Below, one piece after another: positions 26,489 to 39,931 of a DNA stretch of 40,119 nucleotides. The stretch is from Tannerellaceae bacterium (GTDB lineage Bacteria > Bacteroidota > Bacteroidia > Bacteroidales > Tannerellaceae), in the NCBI GenBank assembly GCA_021201565.1, contig JAJQES010000108.1, positions 1-40,119 on the forward strand, in the 5' to 3' direction. The notes beneath the pieces are model-generated. The model saw nothing but the letters and a program-made list of their open reading frames with translations. It ran no database searches and was not told where the DNA came from. How positions within the stretch are numbered: position 1 is the first letter of the stretch; each line of letters starts with the position of its first letter. Both the position numbers and the translations under genes were made by a program.

Positions 26489-26756
26489 AAGACGCCCTAC
26501 CTTAGCCCAGTACGCAGTGCAGGATTGTATGTTTAGGATTCTCTCTAAGTCCCGTAGGGACGCCCTATCTTAGCCCAGGACAACGTCCTGGGTAATAGAG
26601 AGTAAGAAGAAAAGGAGTGCTGTAAGCACGGCATAATAAAATAGCGACAGATGAATGGATCGTAATTTATGCCGTCCTTACAGGACTCAATACAAATAAC
26701 GGGTTCAAACCCAGGGCGTTGCCCTGGGCTGGGATAGGGCGTCCCTCCAGGACTTA
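26489..26756. repeat. Composite palindromic repeat element (nested GC-rich hairpins with outer inverted arms)
   Basis: Outer arms 26546-26579 (taagtcccgtagggacgccctatcttagcccagg) vs 26723-26755 (cctgggctgggatagggcgtccctccaggactta); inner hairpins cccaggacaacgtcctggg and cccagggcgttgccctggg; partial extra copy at 26489-26523. Confidence 0.8.
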
Positions 26757-32439: not shown

Positions 32440-32512
32440 GCCGACATAGCTCAGTTGGTAGAGCAACTCATTCGTAATGAGTAGGTCGCCGGTTCGAGTC
32501 CGGCTTTCGGCT
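32440..32512 (+). tRNA. tRNA-Thr (anticodon CGT)
   Basis: Cloverleaf: acceptor GCCGACA/TTTCGGC (one C-T mismatch), D arm GCTC/GAGC, anticodon arm ACTCA-TTCGTAA-TGAGT, T arm GCCGG-TTCGAGT-CCGGC. Confidence 0.92.
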
Positions 32513-32884
32513 CGTTTTGATACAAGGACACGGATACAGAGATCCGCGCCAGCGACATTTAAAGTAAAGGGAACGCGGATTACGCAGATAGCGCAGAGTT
32601 TCGCAGATTTTAATTATAGTTTATTCTGAAGCGGGGAACCTGAACGGCCTTCCTACTTTCCAATCTCTTTCCTGTCAGACTAAGAGCTTCGTGCCGGCGA
32701 GAAGTTAGAAGTGTGTCAGATCCGGTCTAACATTCACCTACAAACTACAATTTCATCTCCCTTTTAGTCTGAAACATAACCAACTGTGATCATATAGATT
32801 CCTGTTCTTGTTATTACATACCCCCGGCCCCTCTCCAGAGACTAAATTATAAAATCGAAAAAGTTAGGATTTGTAAGTGAAACA

Positions 32885-33092
32885 ATCCCTGCAAGGGATT
32901 AAGAAATAGCCCAGGGTCGAGCGCAGCGAACACCCTGGGTGAAGATGATAGTAGTTCCTGAACCTTGTAACGGTTCCACCGGGATAACACAATGCAGGGT
33001 GCAACCCACTTCAGGGTTGAGGTGGGTTGGTGATTCCTGACCCAGGGTAGCGCTTCGCTGAACCCCGGGCTATTGCCATATTCCCTGCAGGA
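32885..33092. repeat. Composite palindromic repeat element (nested hairpins)
   Basis: ccctgcaagggattaagaaatagcccagggtcgagcgcagcgaacaccctggg vs reverse complement of cccagggtagcgcttcgctgaaccccgggctattgccatattccctgcagg. Confidence 0.75.
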
Positions 33093-33570
33093 ATAAAAAA
33101 CAAAAATAAATCGTTCCTATCAATGGGTAAGTTCATCTCTTTTTTATCGGAGTTTTTGCACAGTCTCTCCAGAGAGGAGAATAACATCCTATTCTTCATC
33201 ATATTAAACACAAAATAAATCTTCCTGCCACGATTGATACAGAGTTCCGCGGCGGCGAGAGGTTAAACTATCTTACGGTGCCTGTTGGTTAAGGCTGATC
33301 TGCAATTGCAATCCGGAATCAAAACAATGGGTGCTGATCAACCGGAATTTTCGATTGGTAACTTACGTCTGGCTGTAAAGTGCCTGATTGCTTGTTTTTA
33401 TAGTCCCTTCGTGACTATGGAAGTTATAAACTTCCAGATGTTTCTGCTCCGGGTTAAAAACCCGAAGCAAAGGAAGCTACTCTCTACCCACATCTTTTCA
33501 CCCTCGTAGAGGGTAATATATGTTAGCCCCCGGGCCGTTGGCCCGGATAGCCCGGTGGAGATTCCTATTT

Positions 33571-33637
33571 CACGGTGTTGTTGTCCCACGGTACCATTGT
33601 CCCACGGTGCCGTTCACTTCGTTCACTCTACCGTGGG
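33571..33637. repeat. Repeated (cc)cacggtg units ending in a cccacggt...accgtggg hairpin
   Basis: cacggtgttgttgtcccacggtaccattgtcccacggtgccgttcacttcgttcactctaccgtggg. Confidence 0.7.
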
Positions 33638-33676
33638 CTGAGGTAAGCTGTTAAAAGGAAGGTTCTGTGTGGCATC

Positions 33677-35245
33677 TCAGTGGGTTTTTAGGCTGGAGGC
33701 GAACGCCATCCGGACAGCTAAAATGTGCCGGCAGGGGTCTTCCTGAAGGGGGATCTTTCGATGATGCCCGCAGTCACATTGGCCATTTTCCAGCTCCAGG
33801 TCTTTACTAAGGACAGCGAGCGCGCTATATATCCATTTCCCATCCTTCATATCTCCCTCTATGTGTATATTTTCTTTGTTTTTAGTATAGGATAACTCTA
33901 TTCCGGTATGGGATAGTTTACAGGCTTCCTTTTCTTCGGTACTGCTGAACCGGAGAGATTCCGGAGCCGGAAATCCCGGAATAAGTTCCCGGAAGGAGTA
34001 ATTTTCTGTAAGGGGATTGTAAATAACTCTTCCTTTTTGCAGGAGGGCTATCCCGGTGAGTTGTGCTTCGTCTTTTTCAATTCTTAAGCGGCTCATTGTG
34101 TCAGGAAGGGAAATCTTTCTTTTCTCTTTCAGGAGATTCAGAAAGTGTTCCTCTGTTTTCCGGGAAACAAGTGCGGGAGGGGCTAACAAGTCTGTTTGTC
34201 CGGCATGCCGCCAGTCATTGGCTTCCCATCCGTTGAATCCTGTGGTAAAAGTGATGGCGCCCATCTCTGCGATCAGGAAAAAGGGATACCCGGTGCCGTG
34301 GAGGAGGAGTTTACAGGAGTCAACCAGGGGCAGGATGCGGGTGAGCAGCTGGAGTTTTTCTCCTCCCCATACACGGATTCTTTTTTGCTGTTTGCCTGTG
34401 TACAGGGTCTGGTGGCAAACAATCTCTTTTCCGGAGTCTTCTATTTGGATCCGGACGGGTTGCCCGGGGGTGAGATAGAAGGACAACCCGTGAGCCCCGG
34501 TTTTCCGGGTAGGGATGGTGAAGGCGTGACAGATATTCAGAATATCTACCGGGCGGAGTTCAAGTAGGTCGGCCGGCATTCCGGAGGTGGCATTCATCTG
34601 GAGGAAACCGCGGAACCAGGCGGAGGTGAATGAAGGGGAGGGTTCCTGCCGGACCTGTTCCTCTTCCGGCCCGGCTGCTATTTGCAGCATTGTCTCTTTA
34701 TAGCTGCGTATTCCCCGGATCATTTCATAGAAATCAGATGCATAGTCCGGCACAGTCGTTCCGCTTTGTATATCCCGGATTGCATGAAAGGCTTCTTTCC
34801 CGCAGGTAAGTCTCCCGTAGAGGGAGGCCTCGGCGTTGAAATATTCTATGTGTATCTCTTCCGGGTGAACGGTCAGCAGGAACCGGGGGGGAGCCATACG
34901 TGGCGCCTGCTGTTGGAGATAAGCGGTGTATTTTTTCTTTGCCTGGTCAAAAGGGGCGAGGATCTGCTTTTTTTGTTCCCGGATGTATTCCAGTTCTTTC
35001 CGGATGATTTCCAGTTGCTTGTTATCCGGTTGGGCGGCCTGCAAGCTGGTGGCCAGTCTGAGTGGTTTATCGGTGGAGATGGAAGACGCAGATAGGGAGG
35101 CTGGATTCTTTTCTTTTTCCCCGGAAAGGCTGAAATCATACAGCGTGGAGAGGGCTTCCCGGAATGCGGTGCTTTCTTTCAGGATGCCCTGAAACGAGAC
35201 GGGGGTGCCGGATGGACCGGGGAAGAAGCGGAGGAGTGTTTTCAT
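33677..35245 (-). CDS. SWIM zinc-finger protein, retron-associated (WH-SWIM-like accessory gene)
   Basis: C-terminal CDCGHHRKIPLQEDPCRH (CxCxnCxH SWIM signature); 4 bp downstream of the ARM/HEAT gene on the same strand. Confidence 0.82.
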   Translation of the reverse strand: MKTLLRFFPGPSGTPVSFQGILKESTAFREALSTLYDFSLSGEKEKNPASLSASSISTDKPLRLATSLQAAQPDNKQLEIIRKELEYIREQKKQILAPFDQAKKKYTAYLQQQAPRMAPPRFLLTVHPEEIHIEYFNAEASLYGRLTCGKEAFHAIRDIQSGTTVPDYASDFYEMIRGIRSYKETMLQIAAGPEEEQVRQEPSPSFTSAWFRGFLQMNATSGMPADLLELRPVDILNICHAFTIPTRKTGAHGLSFYLTPGQPVRIQIEDSGKEIVCHQTLYTGKQQKRIRVWGGEKLQLLTRILPLVDSCKLLLHGTGYPFFLIAEMGAITFTTGFNGWEANDWRHAGQTDLLAPPALVSRKTEEHFLNLLKEKRKISLPDTMSRLRIEKDEAQLTGIALLQKGRVIYNPLTENYSFRELIPGFPAPESLRFSSTEEKEACKLSHTGIELSYTKNKENIHIEGDMKDGKWIYSALAVLSKDLELENGQCDCGHHRKIPLQEDPCRHILAVRMAFASSLKTH

Positions 35246-35249
35246 CAGA

Positions 35250-38159
35250 TTATTCTTTAATGATCAGTTGCATCTCTAAACCGGGATACCGGTTTTTTAT
35301 CTCTGTCAGTGCATAGATTGCTTTTTCTTTTTCCCGGATACCGGGCAGCAGGCTTACTTCTTCTAATAAGGGAATCAGGAGCCAGGCTATTTCCGGATCC
35401 CTGCAAGATTCGGTATGCAAAAAGGTTATGACCTGTTTTTTGGCTGTTCCCACTTTCTGCCTGCTGAACAGGATGGACCGGAAAAAAGGACGGAGGGCGG
35501 CCAGGATCTCTTTCTTCCCGGATGCCTGTGGGAGTAGTTGTTCCAACAGGGATATCCGCACGTGGAGATCGGGATGTTCGCTTTGCATCAGCAGAAAACC
35601 GGCCATCTGCGCGGGAGGCAGGTAGGCCCGGACAAGTTCCTGTCCGAACTCCCGGACATCCGTATAGGAAGATTCAAGCAGGTAGACCAGCATACCGGGT
35701 TCCCAGTCCCCGGCACTGAAATGGTTGGTGAAGAACTGGCGGGCGTACCGGCGTGTCTCTTCCTGTGAGGAAGTGGCCAGCGCGATGGCTTTTTTCTTCT
35801 CTCTACGGATATGGTTGCTGTTTTGCCGGAAGTAGTTCCGGCACCATTCCCGTGCTTCCGGAAGTGGATGTTCGCCGAATGAAATGACCTGTTCAAGCGT
35901 AAATTCCTGGTCCCGTGCAGTCAGGGCCTGGTTCCAGTAGGACTGTAACTCCCGGGTGAAGAACTCCCGCAGGATAGTATGCGCGCCTTCAAAGGCTTCC
36001 GGTTGGACCAGCCGGGTAAGAATGTTCCGGGTAAGGGCATTCCGCAGATAGGGATGGTAGCTGGCCAGTCTGCGGAGACGCTCGAGGATTTGTATAACGA
36101 CCTCTTTATTGGGATTGTCTGTTTGTTGTAACAGGAAGTCACTCTGGGCCGCCAGTACACTATCGGGGTAACGGCTTACCAGGCACAGTCCGTTGTCCCG
36201 GACAGCGGGTAAGGGACTCCGGAGTAATTTCCCGGCCAGGGCGGGCGGAACCTCGGAAGCACTGACGCGGGCAGATTTTTCAGCCGTGATCTCACTAGCG
36301 AGTAACTGGTTTGTATCCAGAGGAGAGGACAGAAGAGAGTTGATGAGTTTCCACTCCAGTTTATACAAATAAGATCCGCTGAGGTCTTTGATCCGTTTTG
36401 TGGCGGTCCGGACCGCTTCCCGGCTTTCACTGGTATCCGGTAAAGTCGTTAACCGGGTGAGGACAGCCTCCGGCAGGGTTTGCTGTTGTTCATCAGACAG
36501 CCGGAGATGGCGTAGCAAACGGTCTATCCAATCTGTCGTGTTTGTAGCAGGATATACAATTAACCAGGCCAGAAAAGAAGTATCTGCCGACAAAACGGAA
36601 AAGTGTTGTATGATTTGTTCCCGGGCCCATGTCCGGATCTCTAGGGAGTCCCGTTCCAGTAAACCACAAAGAAATCCCGGTTCAGGGGGAAGTGTCCCGG
36701 CCTGTGTTTTTAGCAAATCCAGACCGAAGGTACGGGGTATTTCGTAGGAACTGTTTAACAGCAGGATGATTTCTTCCCGGCTGACCTGCGTGCAGATCTC
36801 ATCATAGCGGCTGTGTTTCTTCAACCGGTTGTAGGCAAACTGATGGACCAGGTCCATCTTTGCCTGTTTCAATAACTCTATATAGGTTTCCGGCACTGCT
36901 TCCCAATGTTCCGGGAAGAGTTCAAACCATTTCTCTTTTTCCTGCTCTTCTTTTCTTTCCTCTACAGGTGCAGGTCCGGCCTGTGGCTTTTTTTTCTTTT
37001 TGTAAACACCGTACAAATATTTTACCAGGCCTCCCAGGAGAGAGTCCGGCTGGGTCTCTGCCGCGTATTTCTGTGGTTCATCGCCGGTTTGATATAATAC
37101 CATTTCATTGTAGTAATTGAATTTGGTATATATTTTCCTGGTAGGGGGATGGTAGGTGTATAGGAACGTGTCGGTTAGCCGGCGTTCCGGATCTTTTCCG
37201 AACAGGATGGTGGAGAGCAGAAAGGATTTATAACATTCCGGCTGGTGATTTACCAGAAAATATTTTTTCCGGGTGAGGGGATCCCGCTGTGCATACTGGG
37301 AGAGAGGAACGTCCTGCTCCGGGATATAGTCTTTGTTGTCGTATTGAAGAAGGAAAGCGAAGGCTATTTCCAGATAGGCCCGGGCATCGCCGGACTCTCC
37401 GGCTCGCTTTAATAGTTTCCAGGCCTCCTGCTGGAAATACCGTTTTGTGCGGGGGCTAAAAGCACGTACTTCGTAATAAGAGGATCTCCGGTTGAACGCG
37501 GGTTCTTTTTCGATCAGCCGTGCCAGGCAGGATAAGGTCGGATAATCTTTCCGGATTTCCGCCAGCCGATACATGGCACGGATCTGTTTGAAGAACGGGA
37601 CTTCGCACTCCCATCCCCGGAGAACTGCCTGTAAGGGTGAAAGCAGCCAAGGATGAGGCTTTGCTAACAGATATAGTTCGGTAAAGGAGCCTATATTTGC
37701 ATTGTTTGTATAGAATTCCAGGAGTTGGAGGAAGGTGGTTTCCTCTTTGTCCTGGATGGCCTGCCGGAGGATGGAGGGGAGCCGGGCGAGCAATGTGCCG
37801 GTAAAAACCTCCAGGGAGTTGTCTGTCAGAATGGTTAACAGGCCTTCTGTGGCCAGGTGGCGGATGTGTTCTTTTGGGGTGGTATCTGTAGCATATTTCC
37901 TGAACAGGGACTCTGCTTCCCTGGCTTTTAGTGTGACCAGTGCATGGAGGGCGGCATAGAGTTGTATTTCCTCTCCTTTTTCTGCTAACATACAGATCCA
38001 TGGAATGGCGGAAAGGGAATGAATTTCTGCTGCTTTGGTAATCACCCGGTGGGTACTCCAGGAGGTCCGGAAACTATTTTTCCCTTCTGCCGCATCCTGT
38101 AGGCGGCGCAGAATGGCTGCCTCCCGGAGAGCTGTTTTGTTGTGAATATGGTTGGGCAT
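35250..38159 (-). CDS. Large ARM/HEAT-like alpha-helical repeat protein, retron-associated
   Basis: 969 aa rich in repeated helical pairs (e.g. LLRSPLPAVRDNGLCLVSRYPDSVL, LLESSYTDVREFGQELVRAYL, MQSEHPDLHVRISLLEQLLPQ); starts 12 bp after the RT stop. Confidence 0.8.
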   Translation of the reverse strand: MPNHIHNKTALREAAILRRLQDAAEGKNSFRTSWSTHRVITKAAEIHSLSAIPWICMLAEKGEEIQLYAALHALVTLKAREAESLFRKYATDTTPKEHIRHLATEGLLTILTDNSLEVFTGTLLARLPSILRQAIQDKEETTFLQLLEFYTNNANIGSFTELYLLAKPHPWLLSPLQAVLRGWECEVPFFKQIRAMYRLAEIRKDYPTLSCLARLIEKEPAFNRRSSYYEVRAFSPRTKRYFQQEAWKLLKRAGESGDARAYLEIAFAFLLQYDNKDYIPEQDVPLSQYAQRDPLTRKKYFLVNHQPECYKSFLLSTILFGKDPERRLTDTFLYTYHPPTRKIYTKFNYYNEMVLYQTGDEPQKYAAETQPDSLLGGLVKYLYGVYKKKKKPQAGPAPVEERKEEQEKEKWFELFPEHWEAVPETYIELLKQAKMDLVHQFAYNRLKKHSRYDEICTQVSREEIILLLNSSYEIPRTFGLDLLKTQAGTLPPEPGFLCGLLERDSLEIRTWAREQIIQHFSVLSADTSFLAWLIVYPATNTTDWIDRLLRHLRLSDEQQQTLPEAVLTRLTTLPDTSESREAVRTATKRIKDLSGSYLYKLEWKLINSLLSSPLDTNQLLASEITAEKSARVSASEVPPALAGKLLRSPLPAVRDNGLCLVSRYPDSVLAAQSDFLLQQTDNPNKEVVIQILERLRRLASYHPYLRNALTRNILTRLVQPEAFEGAHTILREFFTRELQSYWNQALTARDQEFTLEQVISFGEHPLPEAREWCRNYFRQNSNHIRREKKKAIALATSSQEETRRYARQFFTNHFSAGDWEPGMLVYLLESSYTDVREFGQELVRAYLPPAQMAGFLLMQSEHPDLHVRISLLEQLLPQASGKKEILAALRPFFRSILFSRQKVGTAKKQVITFLHTESCRDPEIAWLLIPLLEEVSLLPGIREKEKAIYALTEIKNRYPGLEMQLIIKE

Positions 38160-38171
38160 GTCAGTAGATGT

Positions 38172-39635
38172 TTAAGTAGTAAGAGGAAGCCCCCACCAGT
38201 CTACCTCAAAAGAAGAGGTCGAAGGGGAATCCGGTTCTTTTTTTTCACCGGACTTGTCTATCCTGGTTTCCGGACTGGAGGCCGGTCCGGCCGGATAGCC
38301 ATGTTTGAATACAATTTTCATCAGTTGTTCTTCAAACTTCTTTGCTTTGTGGGGGTGAACCATCCGGATGAAGTTGATATATCCTTCTATGCTGTGGGGC
38401 AGATAGCCTGAGGGATGACCCCATTGCTGTTGCTGCCAGCCGTTTACCTCTATATGATGTAAAAGAGCTCTGAACCGGCGGAGTTGTTGCCGGTCTATAT
38501 TGGGGCGCTGGTTTACGACAATTCCGGTTACCCGTTGTTGCCGGTTCTTACGCATGATCTGTGTTTTCTCCGGATGGACGGTGAATCTTTCTTCCCGGAT
38601 GACTTTTCTTATGAAATAGAGGAGTTTGGTGATATTTCTTTCCTGCTCTTTATAGGCGGAGAAGGTCAGGTCATCTGCATACCGGGTGTAGGTGAAATTG
38701 TATTTTTTAGCTACGCCTTCAAGCCGTTTGTCCAGCGTATAAGCGATCAGGTTACTGATAGCGGGACTGGCGGGTGATCCTTGCGGGAGGGAACGCCTGT
38801 TTGTTTGTACATACCAGGTTTGCCCGTTTAGCTCTACCTGCCTGGTTTGGGCTTCTGTACAGATGAGCGCCAACAGAATACTTAGTTGCTCTGAATAGCC
38901 GAACTTCCGGAACAATCCTTTCACACGCTTGTAGGAGATGGAAGGAAAAAAGTCTTTCAGGTCCAGATTAACCACAATGTCTTTTCCCAGGTGAGGGGAG
39001 GCGTTGGTCAGGATAGAACGTTCTTTGGCGAACCCATGCACCTGGTCACAGACCGGTAGCCGGTTGAGGATGTTTTCTGTTACCCAATATTGTAGCCTCT
39101 TTAGTTTTTGTTTGGGGGCGGAGATGGTGCGCATTTCCCCTGATTTCTTCGGGAATTTGAAGGTATAATAATGGGTGGAGGAGGTGACTTTCCTGTTATA
39201 CAAAAGGTATTGCAGGGTAGGTAAGTCACAGTTCATTTGTTCTCCCAGTTCCCGGAAAGAAGTACAAACAGGCAGGTTGTATTTTTGTAACAGGGCGGTG
39301 TTGGTTTCTGTTTCCCTCAGCCCTGTTGATACTTCTTCCCCCAGATAGGGGATCGTTTCCGGCCGGGCCAGTTTCCGGCGCGCGGCCTTTTCCAGTTTCT
39401 TTTGCCTGGCCCGTTGCCGGAGCAGCATCTCCCCTTTTTCTTTGTTTTCCTTTCCGGTCTTTGCCAGCAGCTCATTCAGTTCACGGGCTAAATCATCTTC
39501 CCGCTGGTTTAACTCTTCCGGAAAAGCGGGAAGGGGCTGCTCCCAGAACCCGAGACGTTTCATCTCTTCCAGTGGTTGCTTTTCGACTGGAACAGATCTG
39601 CCAGGAGTATTTTCTCGTGTCGCTCTTTCACCCAT
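38172..39635 (-). CDS. Retron-type reverse transcriptase (487 aa, with about 110-aa charged N-terminal extension)
   Basis: NASPH (retron NAxxH motif, 38991-39005), VVNLDLKDFFPSI, LPQGSPASPAISNLI, YADD (38670-38681), RVTGIVVN (VTG motif, 38523-38531). Confidence 0.95.
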   Translation of the reverse strand: MGERATRENTPGRSVPVEKQPLEEMKRLGFWEQPLPAFPEELNQREDDLARELNELLAKTGKENKEKGEMLLRQRARQKKLEKAARRKLARPETIPYLGEEVSTGLRETETNTALLQKYNLPVCTSFRELGEQMNCDLPTLQYLLYNRKVTSSTHYYTFKFPKKSGEMRTISAPKQKLKRLQYWVTENILNRLPVCDQVHGFAKERSILTNASPHLGKDIVVNLDLKDFFPSISYKRVKGLFRKFGYSEQLSILLALICTEAQTRQVELNGQTWYVQTNRRSLPQGSPASPAISNLIAYTLDKRLEGVAKKYNFTYTRYADDLTFSAYKEQERNITKLLYFIRKVIREERFTVHPEKTQIMRKNRQQRVTGIVVNQRPNIDRQQLRRFRALLHHIEVNGWQQQQWGHPSGYLPHSIEGYINFIRMVHPHKAKKFEEQLMKIVFKHGYPAGPASSPETRIDKSGEKKEPDSPSTSSFEVDWWGLPLTT

Positions 39636-39654
39636 ACGTTGCTATCACTCTGTA

Positions 39655-39696
39655 TTAAAAAAGAAAAAGCCCCGCATCTTTAACAGGCAGGGCTTT
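39655..39696 (-). terminator. Intrinsic terminator at the 3' end of the retron ncRNA, upstream of the RT start
   Basis: Minus strand AAAGCCCtgcctgttaaagatgcGGGGCTTT followed by TTCTTTTTT; abuts a2. Confidence 0.75.
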
Positions 39697-39917
39697 GGTT
39701 TGGATCCTTCGTATTTTCCCGGGACTATCCCAATCAACTCCGGAGCACAATGGTTTCTTTAGAACGTTTGATCTCGCGGAGTAGGAACTGTATAACGTGC
39801 TAAAGAAACCATTGTGCTCCGGTCTGGTGATTGCGGGCAGGGCAGGTGATGAACTCTTAGCACAACGATGACGAAACATCATCTTTCTCTGAAAAAGAAG
39901 CAAGGTATTTCCAAACC
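39697..39917 (-). ncRNA. Predicted retron msr-msd ncRNA (a1 to a2)
   Basis: Minus strand a1 GGTTTGGA(aata)CCTT (39917-39902) complements a2 AAGG(a)TCCAAACC (39709-39697); two msr stem-loops (39882-39898, 39867-39883); long msd hairpin 39740-39822; immediately upstream of a retron RT on the same strand. Confidence 0.85.
39740..39822 (-). repeat. msd long hairpin: 29-nt arms (28/29 complementary), 25-nt loop
   Basis: + strand left arm 39740-39768 ccggagcacaatggtttctttagaacgtt; right arm 39794-39822 aacgtgctaaagaaaccattgtgctccgg. Confidence 0.95.
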
Positions 39918-39923
39918 TCCCGG

Positions 39924-39931
39924 CAAAGTTA
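39924..39931 (-). promoter_or_regulatory. Candidate -7 box TAACTTTG driving the retron ncRNA
   Basis: Reverse complement of caaagtta; matches TAnnTTTG and would start the transcript at about the first bases of a1. Confidence 0.65.

Follow-up and report, generated by a model that had tools for sequence, protein, structure and literature searches.

Retrons are bacterial reverse-transcriptase systems of a kind employed against viruses. The closest described systems to the locus analyzed here are the type XIII retrons, a name that follows PADLOC and what we take to be the classification of Mestre et al. In Flavobacterium, Chryseobacterium and Pedobacter, their genes are ordered as reverse transcriptase (RT), HEAT protein and SWIM protein. 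A literature search found no report of a mechanism for type XIII retrons and no report of their anti-phage activity. Retron-Ec86 shares the retron RT core and the msr-msd hairpin design, but is of another type, with a different effector and no HEAT or SWIM partner. Operons of the WGR-DUF6493-DUF7824-DUF7825 kind place the same SWIM family beside a large protein, often with a WGR domain; they differ in having no RT and no non-coding RNA (ncRNA), in a large partner of another DUF family, and in a SWIM protein of about 450 amino acids (aa) vs. about 540 aa in type XIII.

The window analyzed here, the whole 40,119-nucleotide stretch, belongs to the draft genome of a Tannerellaceae bacterium (533 contigs, of which it is number 47; 88% complete), and has the three protein families and the ncRNA architecture of type XIII in the RT-HEAT-SWIM order. 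On the minus strand, the ncRNA is followed by the RT, the HEAT/ARM protein and the SWIM protein, with intergenic gaps of 12 bp (RT/HEAT) and 4 bp (HEAT/SWIM) and all three open reading frames (ORFs) intact; a check of the ORFs returned the coordinates, lengths and gaps given in the first-pass annotation. Its assignment to type XIII was also borne out, the best PADLOC models being RT_XIII, WGR_XIII and SWIM_XIII. The window differs from other type XIII systems in the absence of WGR, a divergent SWIM protein, the absence of a YACYR-like msd core and a shorter RT extension. By most tests it is an ordinary type XIII retron, and by the loss of WGR and the co-altered partners it is a new variant.

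The RT (487 aa; 38172..39635, minus strand) was best matched by the PADLOC model RT_XIII (1.1e-166, 553 bits vs. 308 bits for the next model). The retron hallmarks NASPH (39005-38991), YADD (38681-38670) and VTG (38531-38523) were all present on the minus strand, as had been reported. The nearest solved structures were retron RTs (Ec86, 5e-49), and group II intron RTs, named in the first-pass annotation as a competing affiliation, were matched only at about 1e-4. In a tree of type XIII RTs only, the window was nested in the RT-HEAT-SWIM loci (support 100/99) on a long branch. The N-terminal extension had diverged, and it was shorter by 15 aa than that of relatives. Sites invariant elsewhere were changed or deleted in 6 of 14 cases within the first 40 residues, and in 2 of 61 from about residue 161 to the end.

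The ncRNA (msr-msd, a1 to a2; 39697..39917, minus strand, as are all its parts) begins and ends exactly with its two closing repeats, at the positions predicted earlier. The a1 repeat, GGTTTGGA-AATA-CCTT (39902..39917), pairs with the a2 repeat, AAGG-A-TCCAAACC (39697..39709); CCTT/AAGG was invariant in 24 loci. Directly upstream of the ncRNA is a -7 promoter box of the Bacteroidota type (TAnnTTTG), TAACTTTG (39924..39931), also found upstream of a1 in a same-genus copy (L055); the contig extends about 190 bp beyond the ncRNA on its upstream side. The candidate priming G (39901) is next after a1, and the msr stem-loop GATGATG-TTT-CGTCATC (39867..39883) has 7 pairs, with 100% of cells paired in the 24 loci. 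The helix closing the msd base, with a 5' strand including CAATC (39829..39841) and a 3' strand including GATTG (39724..39735, between a2 and the msd arm), showed a compensatory swap between CTATC/GATAG and CAATC/GATTG in 8 of 24 loci. The msd hairpin (39740..39822) is an inverted repeat of 29-nt arms (39822-39794 and 39768-39740; 97% complementary) around an apical loop (39769-39793). A terminator-like hairpin with a T run, AAAGCCC...GGGGCTTT (39660..39696), lies between the ncRNA and the RT; a pattern match at 39687-39671 overlaps it.

Folding of the ncRNA region beat 100 of 100 shuffles (z = -5.2). A covariance model trained on 25 other loci, with the window and all loci of its layout left out, recovered 39930-39680 on the minus strand (E = 1.9e-7; next match in the window E = 0.97), with a score of 28 bits vs. 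46-63 bits for other Bacteroidota copies. In the 24 loci of the window's layout, the 43 predicted pairs were 95.5% kept, and 107 cells of the alignment were changed on both sides, vs. 32 after shuffling and no more than 29 in slid versions. Compensatory change occurred in 19 of 43 pairs in this layout and in 39 of 65 pairs in the 25 other loci; the window kept 20 of the 21 conserved pairs checked. The window ncRNA was thereby confirmed as real, its predicted fold being backed by many compensatory changes. In relatives, a core such as GTACTAGTGTAC or GTACTATACGTAC recurs within the variable msd stem, and the longest internal palindrome of the stem averaged 6.3 vs. 4.3 in shuffles (maximum 4.95), these being related and not independent sequences. 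The YACYR-like core, present in the 23 relatives aligned, was absent from the msd stem of the window, which has TTTCT at that place.

The HEAT/ARM solenoid protein (969 aa; 35250..38159, minus strand) matched the PADLOC models WGR_XIII (1.1e-184) and HEAT-ARM_XIII (7e-21), the former only from profile position 92 onward. The N-terminal WGR domain was present in the alignment in 36 of 36 near-full-length relatives, and the window protein begins downstream of it; in HEAT proteins, WGR was above the Pfam cut-off in 5 of 6 relatives checked. The RT stop is followed after 12 bp by ATG, which makes this a clean deletion, and no WGR above the cut-off was found elsewhere in the draft genome. Among HEAT sites invariant in the other systems, all 22 of 22 WGR sites were gone, with few changes outside WGR. 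As judged from the alignment, the window alone among 37 compared systems has lost WGR, a DNA-binding domain. A second WGR-less candidate (L047) was ruled out, as its ORF runs off the contig end. The operon had been described earlier as complete; this holds for the three genes and the ncRNA and fails for WGR, a domain not known to be part of the formal definition of type XIII. The WGR of PARP2 is described as binding DNA ends (PMC8190142). In the usual system, WGR on the solenoid probably contacts DNA, most simply the msDNA. The HEAT protein was modelled as a long helical solenoid (pLDDT 84), in which no enzyme fold was found.

The SWIM protein (522 aa; 33677..35245, minus strand; PADLOC SWIM_XIII 7.5e-102) has a predicted clamp-like region (about 35245-34211), a predicted winged helix (about 34168-33986) and a SWIM zinc finger (about 33793-33713). 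The zinc ligands C490/C492/C505/H507 are invariant in the family and kept in the window. The zinc finger claimed in the first-pass annotation was supported by the PADLOC model and these ligands and not by Pfam (15.4 bits, below the 19.6-bit cut-off), so the SWIM name is taken from the former two. The structural model (pLDDT 75.5, pTM 0.75) gave a best Foldseek E of 4e-7 (probability 1.00), the 50 PDB matches listed being PCNA or 9-1-1 kin, and in a viral structure library it matched mostly PCNA or clamp-like proteins. The TM-scores were modest, at about 0.5-0.6 by target and 0.3 by query, and sequence profile comparison with three PCNA sequences, checked against PDB, detected no similarity; thus, the protein resembles sliding clamps in predicted monomer fold rather than by proven kinship. 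It differs from PCNA by an extra coiled-coil insert, the winged helix and the SWIM finger. No recognisable catalytic domain or enzyme fold was found in the model.

The window SWIM protein was 29-34% identical to any relative aligned. It deviated at 71 of the 159 near-invariant sites; apart from the distant L047, no other sequence did so at more than 6. Changes at invariant sites were far more numerous in residues 1-280 than in residues 281-548, and the window branch was saturated in the SWIM tree. Identities of the three genes were compared over 190 locus pairs. In pairs without the window, SWIM identity exceeded RT identity by 9.1 ± 3.7 points, whereas in window pairs it averaged 12.1 points below RT identity; the difference between HEAT and RT identity was ordinary (-18.9 vs. 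-16.1). By this comparison, SWIM, normally the most conserved of the three genes, is the one that changed fastest in the window lineage. The RT core, the ncRNA scaffold and the zinc ligands were kept, and WGR, the SWIM N-terminal half, the RT N-terminus and the msd-stem motif were altered. The apparent co-change of WGR, SWIM and the RT N-terminus represents a single lineage, whose long branches could mislead, and in the RT-less operons the presence or absence of WGR had no visible effect on SWIM conservation. A tentative and rather improbable interpretation is that WGR, the SWIM N-terminal half, the RT N-terminal extension and the palindrome-rich msd-stem core would form one recognition surface, that the PCNA-like clamp effector of type XIII would act on DNA replication without an enzyme domain, and that the window would be a natural knock-out of this surface, re-tuned and not lost.

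An alternative is a decaying copy: after the loss of WGR, the effector half would have come under weaker selection, and the locus would be disappearing with its ORFs still open. The SWIM deviations, the long terminal branches and the low ncRNA score of the window agree with decay. Against it, there were 0 stops and 0 frameshifts across the 1978 codons of the three ORFs; in the SWIM gene, a stop would arise from about 4% of single-base changes, and a neutral SWIM gene at about 30-34% identity would carry many. All zinc ligands and RT motifs were kept, as were all but one of the RNA pairs checked, codon periodicity was normal in the retron ORFs, and their codon-position GC matched that of ValS. 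With ORFs, codon periodicity, zinc ligands and RNA pairs intact, decay alone is unlikely.

Genome contigs scanned with protein seeds yielded no relatives, and the DNA pattern of the ncRNA was therefore used as the seed. The sequence upstream of the RT in a few relatives comprised CCTTGC, a GATGATGTTTCGTCATC-type stem-loop, a long variable hairpin and GGAGTTG...ACGAAGG. The last piece, from the ncRNA only, served as the search pattern. The pattern matched 60 genome contigs, 58 of which were type XIII-like loci with an ncRNA of the window's kind, and at least one type XIII gene was on the fetched stretch in 56 of the 60. Two contigs (L083 and L090) had the full ncRNA and end just past it, and two matches (L062 and L087) were taken as chance. 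The loci span Bacteroidota, Cyanobacteria, Myxococcota and Pseudomonadota in three layouts, RT-HEAT-SWIM as in the window, HEAT-SWIM-ncRNA-RT, and a divergent cyanobacterial one with HEAT on the other strand; the same ncRNA was next to the RT in all three. Just one distant plasmid match was found in plasmid and phage collections, and no match for the ncRNA pattern or the SWIM or HEAT proteins in viral contigs. In genus, order and class samples, nothing close to the SWIM or HEAT protein of the window was found.

Several loci had particular features. In Pseudanabaena (L073, L074 and L084), the HEAT/WGR gene is on the strand opposite to ncRNA-RT. L055, from the genus of the window, is a second type XIII copy with WGR intact and frameshifts in RT and SWIM; it is not claimed to be decayed, as the frameshifts may be draft-assembly errors. 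L047 has a SWIM-RT pair with a gap of only about 10 bp, and no ncRNA was found there by the covariance model; its ncRNA may lie elsewhere or have diverged.

Shorter SWIM homologues sit in the RT-less operons next to WGR-DUF6493-DUF7824-DUF7825 proteins, some of which have WGR and others not. One of these operons adjoins bpX4, bpMoxR, bpX2, bpX0/bpX1 and bpX3 genes, which belong to the beta-propeller MoxR-vWA ternary conflict system (Kaur et al. 2020; PMC7159879). From these gene neighborhoods, the SWIM family of type XIII appears to occur also in a predicted conflict system that has no RT. No bpMoxR or bpX genes were found among the neighbors of the window retron.

Those neighbors are ORF146, tRNA-Thr(CGT) (32440..32513, plus strand), which adjoins the retron, ORF353 and ValS. 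The order ORF353-ORF146-tRNA was common to three same-genus genomes, without a retron in the sequence available there. A type XIII system was carried by 2 of 5 genomes of the genus; the HEAT proteins of the two carriers were only about 40% identical, a level that suggests either independent acquisition or rapid change. The interval from tRNA-Thr to the SWIM gene (32513-33676), about 1.1 kb long, had no evident genes and held several GC-rich hairpin repeats (CCCAGGGT..ACCCTGGG and CCCACGGT..ACCGTGGG). Elsewhere in the window, two matches to the Rfam 'sRNA' Acido-Lenti-1 (26548-26592, minus strand; 26710-26754, plus strand) are the ends of one element of about 207 bp. The draft genome had 94 such matches, 59 above the cut-off, many as minus/plus pairs about 160 bp apart; from copy number and pairing this looks like a dispersed REP/MITE-type repeat and not an sRNA gene.

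That the locus is a functional type XIII retron on the chromosome, reduced in build and working as outlined below, is given about an even chance. The RT would prime at the G after a1 on the ncRNA closed by a1/a2 and copy the msd into hairpin msDNA; the anatomy of this step is that described above, and its chemistry is extrapolated from retrons in general. RT-msDNA would then keep the SWIM protein in a complex for which the HEAT solenoid serves as scaffold. A phage that interfered with replication or the msDNA would disturb the complex and free the SWIM protein, and growth would stop because this protein binds DNA or the replication machinery, and not by cutting or modifying a small molecule. 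The killing step is a guess, as the analysis turned up no catalytic domain. The defence role and the toxin/antitoxin-like reading of the first-pass annotation would follow by analogy with the family.

Roles might also be reversed, the clamp-like face of the SWIM protein sensing phage replication proteins and the HEAT or msDNA complex acting on the cell. A clamp fold in the gene normally best conserved of the three is consistent with a sensor, and phage SSB reportedly activates another retron, Eco8 (PMC13158370), but the HEAT model showed a plain solenoid and no enzyme fold, and we consider this arrangement doubtful. A main role other than phage defence, e.g., a regulatory one in which the winged helix and SWIM parts bind DNA, would suit proteins of DNA-binding or scaffold types at a locus where defence is deduced only, but is very improbable given the patchy distribution, the accessory position by a tRNA gene, the absence from three same-genus genomes and the kinship of the SWIM family to a predicted conflict system.

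With the type XIII retron of reduced build as the preferred reading, the type gains an ncRNA supported by covariation, three operon layouts and a predicted clamp-like fold for its SWIM protein. A natural deletion variant shows which type XIII parts change together, and the question of type XIII function is now reducible to concrete tests at the level of domains.
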